This document shows positions 14,893-25,930 of a DNA stretch of 64,000 nt, in pieces (position 1 is the first letter of the stretch; every line of letters starts with the position of its first letter). This DNA is from Halorubrum aethiopicum. GTDB lineage: Archaea; Halobacteriota; Halobacteria; Halobacteriales; Haloferacaceae. The position numbers and the translations under genes are program-made. The notes under the pieces were generated by a model. It ran no database searches and was not told where the DNA came from. It was given only the letters and a program-made list of their open reading frames with translations. The stretch is from NCBI RefSeq assembly GCF_001542905.1, contig NZ_LOAJ01000001.1, positions 2,294,001 through 2,358,000 of the forward strand, written 5' to 3'.

Positions 14893-15722
14893 GGGTGGTG
14901 GTGATGGACGACCTGCCCGGTCGCGCCGTAGGCGTCCTCGAGGGCGTCGCTCTCGACGAACGACTCGGTGTCGCCGTGGTGGTACAGTTCGGTGTTGATA
15001 CACGCCACGCGGTCGGCGCGGTCGGTGACGACGCCGATGTCGTGTTCGATCAACACGATCGTGATGCCGTCGTCGTTGAGCCGGTCGAGGAGCGCGTAGA
15101 AGGCGTCCCGGGACTCGGCGTCGACGCCGACGGTCGGCTCGTCGAGCGCGAGCAGGTCCGCCTCGCTCGCGAGGGCGCGAGCGATGTACGCGCGCTGGCG
15201 CTGGCCGCCGGAGAGCTCGTTCATCAGTCGGTCCGCGAGGTCGACGATGCCGACCGTCTCCATCGCGGCCGCGACCGCCTCCCGGTCCGCCTCGCCGAGC
15301 CGGCCGTGGCCGACGTGGGCGAACCGCCCCATCGTGACGCACTCGCGGACGGTGACCGGCATCGCGCCGCCGCGGTTCGTCGCCTGCTGGGAGACGTAGC
15401 CGATCCGGCTCCCGTCGTCGACCTCGTCTATCGGCCGGTCGAACAGCCGGACCGTCCCCTCGTCGGGAGTATGGAGGCCCAGCATGAGGTGGAGGAGCGT
15501 GGTCTTTCCGGAGCCGTTCGGCCCGACGAGCCCCAGGAAGTCGCCGGCCTCGACCGTCAGCGAGACGTCTCTCACGGCGACGGTGTCGCCGTACGCGAAC
15601 GTCACGTCCTCGAGTTCGATGACCGGGTCCACTGTGTGCCCCGACGTTGCGTCCGCCGAAGGTTTAGCTCTTCCATTCGGGGCGAGGACCCGATCGGCCC
15701 CGACGACCTGATCCGTCTCCAT
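14889..15722 (-). CDS. znuC: Zinc/manganese-type ABC transporter ATP-binding protein
   Basis: Walker A (GPNGSGKT) is at residues 67-74, the signature LSGGQ at 170-174 and Walker B (LLALDE) at 190-195. About 33 extra N-terminal residues precede the ABC domain, and the protein ends in HHHHP, which might bind metal. It drives metal uptake through the permease whose start codon overlaps its stop. Its own ATG overlaps the binding-protein stop by one base (TGATG). Confidence 0.93.
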   Translation of the reverse strand: METDQVVGADRVLAPNGRAKPSADATSGHTVDPVIELEDVTFAYGDTVAVRDVSLTVEAGDFLGLVGPNGSGKTTLLHLMLGLHTPDEGTVRLFDRPIDEVDDGSRIGYVSQQATNRGGAMPVTVRECVTMGRFAHVGHGRLGEADREAVAAAMETVGIVDLADRLMNELSGGQRQRAYIARALASEADLLALDEPTVGVDAESRDAFYALLDRLNDDGITIVLIEHDIGVVTDRADRVACINTELYHHGDTESFVESDALEDAYGATGQVVHHHHP

Positions 15723-16797
15723 CACTCCGCGCCGAGCGCGCGCCCGAAGGCGGGGACGTTGACCTCGAGCATCTGCTCGCGGTAGCCGTACCCCGCCTCG
15801 TTCCACTCCCGCGTCGACCCGCCCGCCGGCGTCACCGCCATCGTCTCCGTCGCGCCGCTGTTCTCGACGATCGTCTCCGCGAGGTTCGTCGACGCGAACC
15901 GGTCGTACAACACCACGTCGATGTCGTTGTCGTCGACGACCGCGATGGTGTCCGCGATGTCGCTGCCGCTCGGCTCGTTCTGTGGCGACACGCCGACCGG
16001 CGAGTGGATCTCGAAGCCGTACCGCTCGGCGAGGTACTGGAAGGAGTCGTGGCCCGCGAGGACGACCACGTCGCGCTCGGCGGCCTCGACGGTGGAGGCG
16101 AACGCCTCGTCGACCTCGTCGAGTTCGGCGTTGTACGCCTCGGCGTTGGCGGCGTAGTCGTCCGCGTTGTCCGGGTCCGCCTCGCCCAGTCCGGCCGCGA
16201 TCGTGTCGACGACCTCCCCTGCGAGGACCGGGTCGACCCAGACGTGCGGGTCGATCTCGCCCTCGTGGCCGTGTCCGTCCTCGCCCTCGCCCTCTTCCCC
16301 GTCGTGTGAATCGCCTTCCCCCTCGCCCGCGTGCTCGTCTTCGTGTTCCCCTCGTGTGACTCCCGGCCGTGGTCCCACGCGAGCAGCTGGTCGTCGAGAC
16401 CGTCCAGGCCGTCGATGACCGCCACCCCCTCGTAGTCGGACTCGAGCGTCGACGCGATGTCCTGCGCCCAGGTGAACTCCGGAGTGTCGAAGTAGACGAA
16501 CGCGTCGCTCGCGGCCACGTCGGTCGCCAGGGTCCCGCTCGGCTCCCACCCGTGTCCGAGCTGTCCCACGTCGACCGGGTTGGTGAACGTCGCGTGGTCG
16601 CCCGCGACCCGGTTCGACCAGTCGTAGAGGGGAAAGAACATCGCGTAGCCGGAGTCGAGCCCGCCGACCCCCCCGCCGGTTCCGTCTCCCGACCCGGATC
16701 CGCCGCCCGCACCGGCACAGCCGGCGAGCGACCCGGCGACGGCCGCCCCGAGGAGCCCCGCGCTCCGCCGCACCACCGATCTTCGCGTGTCGTCCAT
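15722..16797 (-). pseudogene. znuA: Zinc ABC transporter substrate-binding lipoprotein, frameshifted
   Basis: The N-terminal part (frame from ATG 16797) has a twin-arginine signal and a lipobox (SLAGCAG). It runs through FVYFDTPEFTWAQD to WDHGRESHEG. The C-terminal part continues in another frame from GEHEDEHAG with IDPHVWVDPVLAGE, GHDSFQYLAERYG and a normal C-terminus. The break falls in the His/Glu/Gly-rich loop expected in ZnuA, at a run of four C on the plus strand (16348-16351). One more base there restores a full protein of about 358 residues. All other family features are intact, so the defect is either recent or a sequencing error. It heads the znuABC operon. Confidence 0.88.
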
Positions 16798-19400: not shown

Positions 19401-19420
19401 ACATATATTTATTATATTTG
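19401..19420 (+). promoter_or_regulatory. Strong TATA-like promoter of the 19.4-23.1 kb cassette
   Basis: The 20 bases ACATATATTTATTATATTTG are almost pure A+T. The centre of the box is about 27 nt before the ATG at 19437. This predicts transcription starting at the small leader ORF and not at the GTG of the helix-hairpin-helix gene. Confidence 0.7.
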
Positions 19421-19436
19421 AAGCGTATTCTGCCGG

Positions 19437-19505
19437 ATGGCACCGAAGACGGCGCATCGAGGACTCGAACCGAACGACGAGAACGAACGCGGGTGGCGAC
19501 CGTGA
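19437..19505 (+). CDS. Leader peptide ORF (22 codons) coupled to the next gene
   Basis: ATG at 19437 opens a 22-codon frame that ends at TGA 19503-19505. The peptide starts MAPKTAHRGLE and ends ERGWRP. Its stop overlaps the GTG start (19502-19504) of the helix-hairpin-helix gene as GTGA. The ATG sits where a leaderless transcript from the upstream TATA element would begin. If real, ribosomes would reach the downstream GTG by termination-reinitiation. An alternative is that the leader is not translated and the GTG is reached directly. Confidence 0.45.
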   Translation: MAPKTAHRGLEPNDENERGWRP

Positions 19506-20389
19506 GCGATCCGGACCTCACGGACCTCGACGGCGTCGGCGAGAAGCGGGCCGAACTCCTGCGTCGCCGCGGGTACGCGACCGTCGAGTCGGTGGTGGAC
19601 GCCACCCTCGACGACCTCGTCGAGATCGACGGCATCGGACCGGCGACGGCGACCGACCTCCTCGCGTCCGCGGTGCGGCTGCTGGACACGAGCGAGCCCA
19701 CGGCGGAGACGCCGCGCGTCTCGCGCGTCGGGACCACGTTCCCCCGTTTCGAGCCGGTGACGACGTTCCCGAAACCGCGGATTCCGTTCGCGCGGCCGAC
19801 CCGAACTCCGCCGACCGTCGAGTCCGGATCGGACCGGAAACCTGCCGACTACGACGCCTCACGGCCGCCGGACGACATCATTTCGCGACCGCCGGACGAC
19901 GAGCGCCGACGCGGCGAGAGACGACGGCGGGCCGGCAGCGAGGCGGCGGTCGGCGACGCCGGGACCACGCTCGAGCTCGCGGGCCACCTGCTGGGTCGGG
20001 AGGCTGACCGACGGGGGCGCGTCGGGCATACCCCGATCGATCCCTCGGCGGTCGACGTGAACGTCACCGTCAGGTTCGCGCCCGCGTCCCGGTTCGACGT
20101 CGACGCCGCGGCGACGCTCGCGGAAGCGGGCGTTCCGGCGGCGGCGCTGAAGGCGCTCCCGAAGTTCGAGGACCGCGTTCTCGAACGGCTCGAGGAGGAC
20201 CCGTCGTTCGCCGCCGACGTCGTGGCGTCGCCCGACCTCGTGAGCGAGGCGCTCGATGACGGCGACCCGCTCTCGGACCTGTTCGCGTCGTCCGCCGGCT
20301 CTCCGCGGCGACGCCGTGACGTCGGACTCGCGCCGGTCGGCCTCGCCTCGCTGCGCGTCGGGACCGCCGACGGCCCGGGGGGTGAGTGA
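19502..20389 (+). CDS. Helix-hairpin-helix protein of an unrecognised two-gene cassette
   Basis: The 295-residue product starts with two helix-hairpin-helix motifs: LTDLDGVGEKRAELLRRRG, then LVEIDGIGPATATDLL (roughly residues 6-60). This type of domain binds DNA backbone without sequence preference, as in RadA and UvrC. The middle is Arg/Pro/Asp-rich and probably disordered. The last ~100 residues are predicted helical. A short pattern near residues 233-251 (PSFAADV then PDLV) also occurs near the C-terminus of the next protein. The GTG start was chosen because it overlaps the leader stop and precedes the domain; the GTG at 19493 is also possible. The next gene starts 3 nt after its stop, so the two form an operon. 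Confidence 0.75.
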   Translation: MSDPDLTDLDGVGEKRAELLRRRGYATVESVVDATLDDLVEIDGIGPATATDLLASAVRLLDTSEPTAETPRVSRVGTTFPRFEPVTTFPKPRIPFARPTRTPPTVESGSDRKPADYDASRPPDDIISRPPDDERRRGERRRRAGSEAAVGDAGTTLELAGHLLGREADRRGRVGHTPIDPSAVDVNVTVRFAPASRFDVDAAATLAEAGVPAAALKALPKFEDRVLERLEEDPSFAADVVASPDLVSEALDDGDPLSDLFASSAGSPRRRRDVGLAPVGLASLRVGTADGPGGE

Positions 20390-20392
20390 CCG

Positions 20393-23056
20393 ATGCGAAC
20401 GCCGTACGAAACCGGCGGCTACGACCTGGTCGTTCAGGTGTCCGAGCGGGAGTACAACGACCAGCTCGCGGCGCTGTACGCCGCGGGATCCGACGTGTTT
20501 CCGCCGCAGCTCCGCCGCACGTTCGACGCGCCCGTCGCCGGCGAGGCCAACTTCCTCTTCGACACCCCGTGGATGGCCTTCGAACGGGACCCCCAGACGC
20601 GCCGGGAGGTCGCGCGGTACGATTGGGGGGTCACGGACGCGCAACTCGCCACGACGGGCGACCGGATCACGATGTGTCTGCCGTTCAGCGAGTCCTTCGT
20701 CGCGATCGACGACGGAGCGACGGTGCGCGACCTCGACGGGACGATCCTCGTCCAGGAGTCGGTCGCCGTCCGGACGCCGCCGGCCGACGACGACGCCCGC
20801 GAGGTGGGGCTGGCCTTCGACGGCGGCGTCGACCGCATCGAGGTCGGGTTCACGCCCGAGACGGTCGGACGGCTGAACGACGCCAGCCCGTTCCTCGAGG
20901 CGGTGCTCAGGGCGGTCATCCAGGACGAGGTGACGGAGCTGTTGACGACCGACGTGCGGTGGGTCCCGCTCTCCCCGCAGCCGATCCCGCTCGGCGACGA
21001 CGACGACCCGACGGAGCCGATCGACGTGGAGACAACCCTTCTCCGGACGGGCGAGGACGCGATCGCGTTCCTCCTCCCGACTCGGGCCGCGACCGAGGGG
21101 GACGCGGCCGCCGTGGCGGCGGCGAGCACGACCCCGGAGACGCCGGTGGTCGTGCTCGTCGACGGCGAGACGCTGCTCGGGGACGTCGTCTGTCCCTCGC
21201 TCTCCGAGTCGCTCGACGCCCCCGACGGGGCCTTCGCCCGGCCGTGTCGGCTCACGCGCCCCGTGCCGCTCGACGTCTCGAACGAGGAGGAGATCGACCG
21301 GCTCGCCGTGACCGACCTCGAGGCCCGGATCGCGGACGGACACATCGCGGTTACCGGGGCGTTCGAGGGCGACGGCTCGGCGGAGGGGTTCCCGTTCGAC
21401 GTGGACGGGGACTTCCGGATCCGGGTGTACCTGGAGATCGACGACGGGGCGGTCGACCTCCGCGTCGAGATGGACGACCCGAACGTCAACGTCGACTTCC
21501 CGTGGTACGTCACGCTCGCGGCGCTCGCCCTCGGCGCGATCACGGGCGGTATCGCCGGCGTGATCCTCGCGACCGTCGCCCTCGTCGTCGCCGACGCGAT
21601 CGCGGACGGCGTCGCGAAGAGCATCGGGAAGGACGTGTTCGCGGAGCGACTCGCCGACGTCGATGACCTCTCGATCCCGATCGGGCCGGCCGCGGACGGG
21701 TTCGAGCTCACCGAGCTCGACCTGACGCCCGACGCGCTCGCGATCGGGGGGCGGCCGGTGACGGACGCGGCGCTCCCGGTCGTCGCGCGGTCGGCGCGGC
21801 AGCCGCTCGCGCCCGGAGCCGCGATCGACCTCGACACGGGGACGGTCCGGGCGGGCGTCTTCGAGGGCGCGGACCTCTCGTGGGGGACCGGCCCGAACGG
21901 TCCCGGCCTGTACGCCCGCTCCGCCGCCGTGATGGCTCCGCTCGCCGGCTCCGCCTTCGACGGCCTCACCGTGGTCGACCTCGAGCAGGCGGAGTACGAG
22001 TCCGCGGCCTTTCGGCGCCATCTCCCCGCCTCGCGGGTGCCACGGCGGACGCGGCTGTTCGGCGTCGAGTTCGGCGGCACGGTCGTGATCGCGGTCCAGA
22101 CGAGCGAGAACCGCTACGCGAAGGTCCGCTGTTCGCGGCGCGACGGTCGGCTCCGGCTCGAGTACGTCACCTACGGGCGGCCGACCCCGGAGGTCACGAT
22201 CGAGGAGCTGTCGCGCGTCACCGACTCCCGCGAGATCGAGCGCGGCACGGAGTCGTGGCCCGTCGTGAGCTGTTTCCCCTCCTTCGAGTTCGGCGGGGAG
22301 CGCGTCGGCGGCGGCCTCGAAGTGGAGGACCGATCGGAGGAGTACACGATCGACGAGGTGGCCTATCGGATCACCGCCACGGCTCGCACGCGGCTTCTCG
22401 CCTCGCCGCTCGCGGGCCACGAGTGGACGTTCGCGGGGCGACCGCTCGACGGCCGGGGTTCGTTCGCCCACGAGGGCGCGACCGTCACGTACGACGTGGC
22501 GGGCGCGACCTGCGTCCTCGAGACCGAACGGGGTGCGGGGCTCTCGGGGCACCTCTCGGTGACGGTCGCCGACGACCGCGGGCTCACGGTCGCCGACCGC
22601 GAGTGGCTCGCGTACCCCGCGACGCGAAAGACCGGCGGGATCCCGCCGGGGGCCGTCCGGGAGGCGAGCGACGAGATAGCGCGCTGTGCCGGTCCGCCGC
22701 GACGGTTCCCGCCGGACGGCCCGGGCGGGTTCGGCGGCCCGGGCGCGGACCCGGACCCGATCCCCCCGTGGGCGCTGGACGAACTCACCCAGCCCGGCCG
22801 GCTCGCCGGGGAGGTCGGGACGGACCCCGAGGTGCTCGACCGTCTCCTCGGGGAACTCGCGACGACGGACGGACGGACGACCCCGCGGACGGGGGGTCAC
22901 GACCGCGTCGGCCCCGGAGAGCCGGCGATCGATCCCGCCCGACCCGCCGTCCGCCTCGACCGCGGCCGCCTCGACGAACTCGCGCTCGACGAGCGGTCGC
23001 TCCGGGCCGCGCTCGAGCGCGGCGGGCTCTCGGTGACCGATCCGGACCGGATGTGA
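20393..23056 (+). CDS. Large protein of unknown function with a central hydrophobic hairpin
   Basis: I do not recognise a known family over the 887 residues. The N-terminus reads YDLVVQVSEREYNDQLAALY, faintly like TULIP/P47-type lipid-binding proteins. Around residues 368-405 there is one hydrophobic hairpin: PWYVTLAALALGAITGGIAG followed by VILATVALVVADAIADGVA. A later beta-rich region has TSENRYAKVR and LEYVTYG. The last ~150 residues are Pro/Gly-rich and then helical. There is no signal peptide. The start ATG has a good ribosome-binding site, GGGGGTGA (20378-20385), and lies 3 nt after the upstream gene. Its partner has DNA-binding motifs. A hydrophobic-ligand-binding role is only a weak guess. 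Confidence 0.85.
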   Translation: MRTPYETGGYDLVVQVSEREYNDQLAALYAAGSDVFPPQLRRTFDAPVAGEANFLFDTPWMAFERDPQTRREVARYDWGVTDAQLATTGDRITMCLPFSESFVAIDDGATVRDLDGTILVQESVAVRTPPADDDAREVGLAFDGGVDRIEVGFTPETVGRLNDASPFLEAVLRAVIQDEVTELLTTDVRWVPLSPQPIPLGDDDDPTEPIDVETTLLRTGEDAIAFLLPTRAATEGDAAAVAAASTTPETPVVVLVDGETLLGDVVCPSLSESLDAPDGAFARPCRLTRPVPLDVSNEEEIDRLAVTDLEARIADGHIAVTGAFEGDGSAEGFPFDVDGDFRIRVYLEIDDGAVDLRVEMDDPNVNVDFPWYVTLAALALGAITGGIAGVILATVALVVADAIADGVAKSIGKDVFAERLADVDDLSIPIGPAADGFELTELDLTPDALAIGGRPVTDAALPVVARSARQPLAPGAAIDLDTGTVRAGVFEGADLSWGTGPNGPGLYARSAAVMAPLAGSAFDGLTVVDLEQAEYESAAFRRHLPASRVPRRTRLFGVEFGGTVVIAVQTSENRYAKVRCSRRDGRLRLEYVTYGRPTPEVTIEELSRVTDSREIERGTESWPVVSCFPSFEFGGERVGGGLEVEDRSEEYTIDEVAYRITATARTRLLASPLAGHEWTFAGRPLDGRGSFAHEGATVTYDVAGATCVLETERGAGLSGHLSVTVADDRGLTVADREWLAYPATRKTGGIPPGAVREASDEIARCAGPPRRFPPDGPGGFGGPGADPDPIPPWALDELTQPGRLAGEVGTDPEVLDRLLGELATTDGRTTPRTGGHDRVGPGEPAIDPARPAVRLDRGRLDELALDERSLRAALERGGLSVTDPDRM

Positions 23057-23376: not shown

Positions 23377-24825
23377 TCACTCCGCGCCGACGGTCGGGTG
23401 CGCCACGTCGAGTTCGACGTTCGCGTCCGGGTCGTCGATCGCCCGTTCGCGGCCGTCGGGCCAGCGCACGACGACGCGTTCCGGCTTCGCGTCCCCGAGT
23501 CCGAAGTGCGCGATCGGCTCCGTCTGGCAGAGGTAGCCGCCGCCGGCGTCGATCACGCGCCGCTGGGTTCCGCCGCCCGCGACGCGGAGCCGCACGGTCG
23601 CCCCGCGTGCCGGCGCGCCCTGCGGCGTCGTCGGACGGACGCGGAGCCAGCCGTTGTCGGCCGCGCCGGGCGCGGCGTACACCGAGATCGGCTGGGCCGC
23701 GACCTCCCCGTGGACGACGACGAGCTCGAGGACGCCGTCGCCGTCGAGGTCGGCGGCGACCGCGCCCGTGCCGAACCCCGTCGGCTCGGCCGCCGCGCCG
23801 ACGTCGCCGGGGACCCAGCGGGGTTCGGTCGCGTCGCCGTCGTCGGCACCGGCGGACCCCGCTCGGCCCCCCCGACCGTCCGCGACCGGGTCGACCCGCT
23901 CGAACAGCCGGCTGGCCTCGCCGAAGCCGTTACAGAACAGCTCCTGTCTCCCGTCGTTGTCGAAGTCGGCGGCGACCACTGACCGGACGCCCTCCGCCGC
24001 GCGAAGCGCCGACGGGGCGACGTCGCGGTACCGTCCCTCGGCGTCGGCCCTGAGCAGCCGGCTGTGACCCTCCCAGTTGCCGACCGCGAGCGCGAACGAC
24101 CCGCCCTCGTCGACCAGCGCGACGCCGCGCGCGTCGCCCGCGGGGTCGGCGAGGTCGGGCCCGCCGTCGACCGCCTCGTAGTGGCCCCCCTCGTTGCGGA
24201 ACAGCCGGTTCGGTCCGGCCTCGACGCCGACGAACAGGTCGGTTCCCTCCGAACAGAGCGGGCCGGGCAGCAGCGACCGGCAGCCGTCCTCGACCGCCAG
24301 CCCGACCGCGTCGGCCATGTCGGAGGCCTCGCCGTCGTCGCCGAGCTCGTAGAACGCGAGCGGCGCGCCGTAGCTGGCGACGGCGACGCCGTAGCGGCCG
24401 GTCCCGAGGCGGTCGAGCGCGGCGACGGAGCGGCCGGCCCGGAAGTTGAGCCGGTCGGCGTTGACGGGCAGCGCGAAGGTGTCGGTCCACCGGTAGGCCT
24501 CCGCCTCCAGCCGGTCGAGGAGGAGGTCGGAGTCGCCGGCGACGCCGACGCTGTTGGCGCAGTTGTGGACGTATATCTCCTCGCAGCCGTCGGCGTCGAC
24601 GTCGGCCGCGCACACGCCCATCGCGTGTCTGTCGCCGTCGGCGACGATGCCGCAGGCGGTGTCGGAAAACCTCGCCGGTCCGCCGTCCTCGCGGGCGTAC
24701 AGCCGGTTCGGCTCCCCGTATCCGGCGACGAAGACCAGCGGCCCGTCCCGACCGGGCGTCACGGCGACGCCGTACCCGCGAACCGGGTCGGCGTCGGCGA
24801 GCAGATCGGAACGGTCCGCGAACAT
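23377..24825 (-). CDS. FG-GAP/ASPIC-UnbV repeat protein (CRTAC1-like)
   Basis: The 482-residue protein has beta-propeller-type repeats with calcium-like loops DVDADGCEE, DFDNDGRQE and DLDGDGVLE. The C-terminal ~100 residues form an ASPIC/UnbV domain with GARGATVRLRV-like strands and WPDGRERAI. In other organisms these proteins are usually exported and bind calcium, but here no signal peptide is seen. Another domain seems not to be attached. Function is not known. The gene stands alone between the small zinc-finger gene and the DICT gene. Confidence 0.87.
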   Translation of the reverse strand: MFADRSDLLADADPVRGYGVAVTPGRDGPLVFVAGYGEPNRLYAREDGGPARFSDTACGIVADGDRHAMGVCAADVDADGCEEIYVHNCANSVGVAGDSDLLLDRLEAEAYRWTDTFALPVNADRLNFRAGRSVAALDRLGTGRYGVAVASYGAPLAFYELGDDGEASDMADAVGLAVEDGCRSLLPGPLCSEGTDLFVGVEAGPNRLFRNEGGHYEAVDGGPDLADPAGDARGVALVDEGGSFALAVGNWEGHSRLLRADAEGRYRDVAPSALRAAEGVRSVVAADFDNDGRQELFCNGFGEASRLFERVDPVADGRGGRAGSAGADDGDATEPRWVPGDVGAAAEPTGFGTGAVAADLDGDGVLELVVVHGEVAAQPISVYAAPGAADNGWLRVRPTTPQGAPARGATVRLRVAGGGTQRRVIDAGGGYLCQTEPIAHFGLGDAKPERVVVRWPDGRERAIDDPDANVELDVAHPTVGAE

Positions 24826-24913
24826 GACCGCCCGTCACCGCCCAGGGGTAATGAACGCACGGGTTGGAGCCGCCGCCGAAGCGGTCGGTCGATCGCTCGG
24901 TCCCGCCGCGGCG

Positions 24914-25852
24914 TCACCCAGCCGGAGTCGACAGGTTTCGCCTGATGTACCGAGTGATGGCGCGGAGTCGGTCCGGGTCGAACGTCCAGACCCCGTGCCA
25001 GACCCGCGGCTCCGTCTCCACCGCCAGCAGGGCGACCCCGCCGTTGACCCCGCGGTCGAGGTCGGTCTCCGCGTCCACGGCCGCCGGGCCGCCCGGCGGG
25101 TCGAACACGACGAACCAGCTGTCCGTGAAGTCGCTGGAGCGGCCGCCGTGGATCGTGGCCTCGAGCCCGGTCGGCGGGTCGTCGGGCACGCCGTAGAGGT
25201 GGGCGTCGACCCCGCCGTCGGCGAGGCGGTCGTACACGCGCCGCGTGCCCAGCTCGTCCTCCAGCCGCGAGAGCCGCTGGAACGACGACCGGAGCGTCCC
25301 GCCGCCGGCCGCCAGGGCGGTGCGCTCGATGAACCGCGAGATGGTGATCAAAAGCAGCTTCTGCCGGTTCGACTCGGGATAGCCGCGCAGGGTGAACACC
25401 GTGTCGTCGAGCCCGGTTATCACCGACGGCAACTCGAGGTCGCCGGGCGCGCGCGTCCCGGTGATGTACAGGTCGGAGTTCACGAACAGGATCGCGTCGC
25501 CGAGCTCCTCGAGCGTCGACCCCGCGAGGACCTCGTCGCCCTCGAGGAGCAACACGAGGTTCTCGGCGTCCGCGAGGCGGTCCCCGTCGAACGGCACCGC
25601 GTCGTGGTCGCGGAGCACGGCCGCGTCGAGGGGATGGTCGGCGATCCCGGCGGAGGCGGCGTCGACGGCGGCGTCGAGGCCGGGCGCGACGGACCCGTTC
25701 GTCTCGTTCGCGCTCCGCTCGGTCACGCGGACGGCGTCGTCGCCGAACGTGTCGACGAGCATGTCCTGGACCGGGTCCGGGTCGGTTCGATTGACGACGA
25801 CGATCGACCGCTCCGCGCTCTCGAAGCGATCGACGAGCTGTCCCAGGGTCAC
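24914..25852 (-). CDS. DICT-domain sensory protein
   Basis: The 312-residue protein looks like the DICT sensory domain known from diguanylate cyclases and two-component proteins. Characteristic parts are ERSIVVVNRT near residue 15, the ILFVNSDLYITG strand, then SRFIERTAL and, late, DSWFVVFDPPGG. There is no kinase, HTH or cyclase output domain, so signalling must go through a partner. It has no membrane segment. The ATG at 25852 is used. No co-directional partner is close; glpC downstream begins about 60 nt after its 3' end only on reading the complement. Confidence 0.8.
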   Translation of the reverse strand: MTLGQLVDRFESAERSIVVVNRTDPDPVQDMLVDTFGDDAVRVTERSANETNGSVAPGLDAAVDAASAGIADHPLDAAVLRDHDAVPFDGDRLADAENLVLLLEGDEVLAGSTLEELGDAILFVNSDLYITGTRAPGDLELPSVITGLDDTVFTLRGYPESNRQKLLLITISRFIERTALAAGGGTLRSSFQRLSRLEDELGTRRVYDRLADGGVDAHLYGVPDDPPTGLEATIHGGRSSDFTDSWFVVFDPPGGPAAVDAETDLDRGVNGGVALLAVETEPRVWHGVWTFDPDRLRAITRYIRRNLSTPAG

Positions 25853-25930
25853 GATACCCGAACCAGCCGGCTACCGAAAATAAACGTTCGTCCTTCGTTA
25901 TCGCATCTGAAAACGAGGCGACGACGCTCC

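Follow-up and report, generated by a model that had tools for sequence, protein, structure and literature searches.

The native roles of the P47 and OrfX proteins are poorly understood, and the best-studied members are encoded next to bacterial toxin genes. OrfX1, OrfX2, and P47 are reported to associate with lipids in vitro; for OrfX2 and P47, this property has been attributed to their TULIP domains (PMC7020563). A remote-homology survey published in 2019 reported bacterial and fungal homologues of P47 and left archaea unmentioned (PMC6791001). In the literature that we searched, a limited library, no archaeal P47 homologue was mentioned. Here, we describe a haloarchaeal gene pair that is best explained overall as an accessory cassette, in which a P47/OrfX2-type TULIP protein (gene B) is encoded together with a dedicated partner protein (gene A); we regard this explanation as reasonably probable.

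The pair is located in a window of 64,000 nucleotides, the whole stretch of DNA that was analysed, which belongs to a haloarchaeal genome of 3.3 Mb. An earlier note, made from the sequence of the window, had listed two ORFs at 19502-23056 with a 3-nt gap between them, and both ORFs were found on the + strand at these coordinates with this intergenic distance. Gene A (19502-20389, + strand) has a GTG start and encodes a 295-aa protein composed of an N-terminal (HhH)2 domain, a low-complexity charged linker, and a C-terminal core; its start at 19502 is backed by the alignment with its relatives. Gene B (20393-23056, + strand) has an ATG start and encodes an 887-aa protein, in which a predicted P47-like tandem TULIP half is followed by a C-terminal beta-sandwich half. 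When the window was compared with the Halobellus captivus copy, gene B had a dN/dS of approximately 0.35 and gene A one of approximately 0.65, indicating purifying selection on both. Therefore, both ORFs are real genes rather than chance ORFs. A TATA-like AT-rich element (19405-19425, + strand) lies 5' of the operon, and a similar one, ATATATTTATTACAAATTGAG, occurs at the same place in H. captivus; this element is a candidate promoter of the gene pair.

Full-length relatives of gene B were present in 5 of the 391 genomes of a class-wide sample and in 4 of the 170 Haloferacaceae genomes. Seven copies are known, the window included. The H. captivus copy (L021, genome G335) shares 74% identity with gene B of the window; it comes from a close relative that has the same locus and belongs to the same genus as the window in the whole-genome set. 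The identity is 49% for L017 (G085) and for L035, which is carried on a Haloplanus rubicundus plasmid, 39% for L018 of Natronobiforma, 29-30% for L019 (G141), and 28% for L020 (G399). The carriers span several families of the order, and most members of the window's genus are without the cassette. A broader search, which sampled 227 genomes from across the phylum in a draw that left out known carriers, returned only the copy of the window. The genome-contig scan relied on two short peptide patterns only, by which distant relatives, bacterial ones included, could be missed.

Gene A and gene B co-diverge, and their pairing is obligate. The co-occurrence of both genes in other genomes had been proposed beforehand as a test, and all seven copies of gene B were found with gene A directly upstream. 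Since the gaps between the two genes range from -4 to +3 nt, the two are likely to be translationally coupled. Among 224 genomes, the gene A core had strong matches only beside gene B, the next best ones being marginal with E-values of 6e-4 or worse. Moreover, the gene A core and gene B have correlated pairwise distances, with an r of 0.82 that was reached by 1 of 5040 permutations. The flanks of the loci differ between genera and no third gene is common to the seven loci, indicating that the module consists of these two genes alone. In nine other Halobellus genomes, the flanking genes SBDS and DUF7576 are directly adjacent with neither cassette gene between them, and the spacer is 39 bp in the closest cassette-free Halobellus genome; the presence or absence of the cassette at this site is clean. 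No integrase or transposase directly adjoins the cassette in the window, and no target-site duplication was seen when the insertion junction was inspected by eye. A virus or phage origin was considered and rejected, since no relative was found in virus contigs or phage records. The pair is a real, self-contained module, and its rarity together with the plasmid copy marks it as an accessory trait.

A link of the pair to DUF2589/PASTA genes was also rejected. A PASTA-domain protein and a DUF2589-like protein are encoded 3' of the pair in L020 (12762-14251), and elsewhere in the window's genome, a run of four genes includes two DUF2589 genes (L082, 4800-6051). The latter are far from the cassette, DUF2589 genes also occur in a cassette-free Halobellus genome, and no DUF2589 gene scored above the cut-off in five of the seven genomes that carry the pair. 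Two other regions of the window deserve a record. The gene of a zinc-transporter-type binding protein (15722-16797, - strand) is split between two frames within a His/acid-rich stretch near 16350, and it is intact in H. captivus as one 359-aa frame; the split in the window is a frameshift or a sequencing error. The interval from an ASPIC/UnbV FG-GAP gene to a glpC-like gene (23377-25900 in the window; L059-L067) is variable among the Halobellus genomes, and contains a gene with a DICT domain, one for a putative secreted protein, or a block of antiporter-like genes for large membrane proteins.

The (HhH)2 domain of gene A spans residues 5-56 (19514-19669, + strand) and matches Pfam HHH_5 with an E-value of 5.9e-11. 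The two HhH motifs claimed for this protein by the earlier note are both present, with the GhG hairpins GVG and GIG in the window, and together they form one (HhH)2 unit. The same residues match the models of the N-terminal (HhH)2 domains of RadA and haloarchaeal L32e. However, this likeness stops after the HhH head; the linker and the C-terminal core match nothing, and the (HhH)2 head is not universal among the gene A copies. It is present in six of the seven copies and intact, with both GhG hairpins, in four; L020 and L035 each have one altered hairpin. In L019, gene A is a core-only protein of 140 aa from which the head is absent, and no HhH remnant was seen in the six frames 5' of this short gene. 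With no head in L019 and an altered one in L020 and L035, the predicted DNA binding, although perhaps useful to gene A, cannot be its essential or invariant function. Judged from the alignment (A8), the invariant part of gene A is the C-terminal core of approximately 145 residues (residues 149-295; 19946-20389, + strand), which is kept in all seven partners. The helical motif W(L/I)..DP..A...DP..A in this core (19946-20389) resembles ribosomal-peptide leader-type helices, and one of the seven gene A members matches Pfam Frankia_peptide at a non-significant E-value of 0.026.

No significant family match was obtained for gene B by sequence in Pfam, NCBIfam, PHROGs, PADLOC, or PDB, whether single sequences or profiles were used. 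The pair, which the earlier note could not place in a known pathway, is a conserved operon without an annotated family. None of the seven gene B members matched the PF06597 (Clostridium_P47) profile at E<=10, and no gene among 145 haloarchaeal genomes scored above the curated cut-off of this profile; by the family's own profile, gene B lies outside PF06597. The composition of gene B is acidic and haloarchaeal (17% D+E versus 9% K+R). A hydropathy scan revealed a single hydrophobic stretch around residues 372-409, where the 19-residue hydropathy reaches 2.33, and no hydrophobic or signal-peptide-like N-terminus. Weak profile matches in Natrialbaceae (L012-L015) were rejected as gene B, because they share only a small beta domain (residues 463-599) and carry NHL-type repeats. 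This small domain (AVRT..NYAKV), for which no Pfam match was found, recurs in NHL-type Natrialbaceae proteins of approximately 690 aa (L022, 7551-9620; L023-L025).

The fold of gene B was predicted with two AlphaFold2 models, one of the full-length protein built from the window protein and five relatives, and the other of residues 1-463 built from the window protein and six relatives. Both models are of modest confidence, with a mean pLDDT of 61 and pTM values of 0.31 and 0.43. The comparison of the full-length model with the PDB gave just five matches at E<=0.001, namely P47 (twice), OrfX2, LBP, and BPI. The model of residues 1-463 gave 11 matches at this threshold, all of them P47, OrfX2, LBP, or BPI, with a best E-value of 1.4e-7, probabilities of 0.95-1.00, and more than 420 aligned columns each. 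The P47 and OrfX2 structures, which were the top matches, aligned over 420-445 columns with a probability of 1.00, at pTM values of 0.31-0.43 and TM-scores of 0.13-0.28. The single-domain TULIPs SPLUNC1, bovine BSP30, and YceB ranked next after these tandem matches. A TULIP or P47 fold had been suggested beforehand for this protein, and the comparison of the predicted models bears this out, the top PDB matches all being TULIP proteins.

It is nevertheless conceivable that gene B is an unrelated beta protein, and that the TULIP match is an artefact of a low-confidence, beta-rich model. The low pTM values, the TM-scores below 0.3 to TULIP matches that reach E<=0.001, and the lack of a sequence match to Clostridium_P47 are in keeping with such an artefact. 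However, the two models were built from different inputs and both placed the same TULIP set on top over the whole tandem length. Furthermore, the comparison of the residue 1-463 model with a library of predicted viral structures yielded no match at E<=0.001, which indicates that the TULIP match is specific to that fold. We therefore consider the artefact improbable. The global TM-scores to the TULIP matches were 0.15-0.28 (0.25-0.28 to P47) and the rmsd to P47 was near 18 A, so that the TULIP fold of gene B is not proven; these low scores probably reflect an uncertain placement of the two domains relative to each other. Taken as a prediction, the tandem TULIP fold of the N-terminal half (residues 1-463) is strongly indicated but not certain.

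The first predicted TULIP-like domain covers approximately residues 10-191 (20420-20965, + strand; model m06bf139b1255, boundaries approximate), with a helix at 18-30, strands at 39-153, and helices at 155-188. The second predicted one covers approximately residues 215-463 (21035-21781, + strand), with long curved strands at 301-368 followed by helices at 371-421. Within the modest confidence of the model, this order of strands and helices fits the sheet-round-helix layout of TULIP domains. Residues 464-756 (approximately; 21782-22660, + strand) are predicted to form C-terminal beta domains, the last of which is Ig/PKD-like. The pLDDT is mostly 80-95 over residues 470-520 and 601-760 and lower between them, and the Ig and PKD matches have probabilities of 0.98-1.00 at E-values of 0.14 or worse. 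Residues 768-887, where the pLDDT is below 50, are probably disordered.

The single hydrophobic hairpin that had been noted in the 887-residue protein does exist; by the models and by hydropathy, it is a Gly-rich helical hairpin at about residues 371-421 (21503-21655, + strand). In the models, its helices (371-384 and 387-421) follow the long strands of domain 2, and the hairpin would thus form part of TULIP-like domain 2. Five of the seven gene B copies have a strong hairpin, whereas it is weak in L020 and missing in L019. The earlier note had paired a DNA-binding protein with a possibly membrane- or lipid-interacting partner. Taken as the core of the system, such a pairing would make gene B a hairpin-anchored membrane protein and gene A a tie of DNA to the membrane, for example in plasmid or chromosome positioning. 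The Gly-rich hydrophobic hairpin of 40-50 residues, found in five copies, and the (HhH)2 head, which is intact in four, could serve such a tether. However, the HhH head is missing in L019 and has one altered hairpin in L020 and L035, the hydrophobic hairpin is absent or weak in two of these same copies, and the models show it as a helical part after the domain 2 sheet. This picture of the core is therefore not supported, and we consider it distinctly improbable. Since the hairpin lies in the TULIP-like domain 2 and two of the seven relatives have a weak one or none, a membrane anchor is unlikely; a helix pair that lines or caps the groove would be a better fit than an obligatory anchor.

With the TULIP-type reading, gene B would be a soluble and presumably cytoplasmic tandem TULIP-type protein, for which lipid binding is suggested by the predicted fold, and its hairpin would pack inside the lipid groove of domain 2 or cover it. 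Gene A would most likely bind or stabilise gene B through its C-terminal core, and the dispensable (HhH)2 head may tether such a complex to the surface of a nucleic acid or a protein. As a strain-specific trait, the two proteins together would most likely sequester or carry a membrane lipid or an isoprenoid; this cellular function of the pair is inferred.

The cassette could also take part in conflicts, either among strains or against viruses. As an antagonistic or anti-virus module, its P47-like protein would help to deliver or neutralise a hydrophobic toxin, or act on a membrane; this is a statement on the biological role, and it is compatible with the TULIP fold. The cassette is rare and patchy, shows clean presence/absence, and has one plasmid copy, as a conflict module might, and P47/OrfX genes adjoin toxin genes in several bacteria (PMC7020563). 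However, a search of the PADLOC defence models with the members of both genes gave no match at E<=1, no conserved third gene accompanies the pair at any of the seven loci, and the cassette was not found in virus contigs or phage records. In addition, no toxin-like Pfam match was found among the scanned neighbours of the loci. We consider the conflict module rather unlikely. The lipid-handling cassette may tentatively be taken one step further, as the first archaeal P47-type TULIP system, in which a mobile tandem TULIP protein and its obligate HhH-tethered partner would handle intracellular isoprenoid ether lipids, or some other hydrophobic compound of the cell interior, separately from toxins; this is a possibility that we hold with some reserve. 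If true, it would extend the P47-like fold to archaea, and a harmless archaeal relative with one obligate partner and toxin-free surroundings would be a clean system for the study of P47-like TULIP function.

Compared with the known systems, BPI and LBP (PDB 1ewf, 1bp1, 4m4d) are the next-best fold matches of gene B and have paired TULIP domains, as predicted for gene B. However, they are animal proteins that are secreted by means of signal peptides and have their domains arranged head to head, and no sequence similarity to gene B is detectable. The clostridial P47 (PF06597; PDB 5wix, 6ekt) and OrfX2 (6ekv, 8fbf) share with gene B the predicted tandem TULIP-like fold over approximately 420-460 residues, the small operon with a partner protein, and the occurrence on plasmids (one copy of the cassette). 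In contrast to them, gene B shows only about 10% identity in the structural alignment, has no PF06597 match, and carries extra beta-sandwich domains and a disordered tail. The partner in the cassette is an HhH protein rather than an OrfX protein, and the host is archaeal. Whereas the orfX/p47 clusters are often located beside toxin genes, the cassette has no toxin-like gene among its scanned neighbours, and only gene A is constantly adjacent to gene B. In its predicted fold, gene B most resembles P47, and we class the cassette as an archaeal variant of the P47-like TULIP systems.
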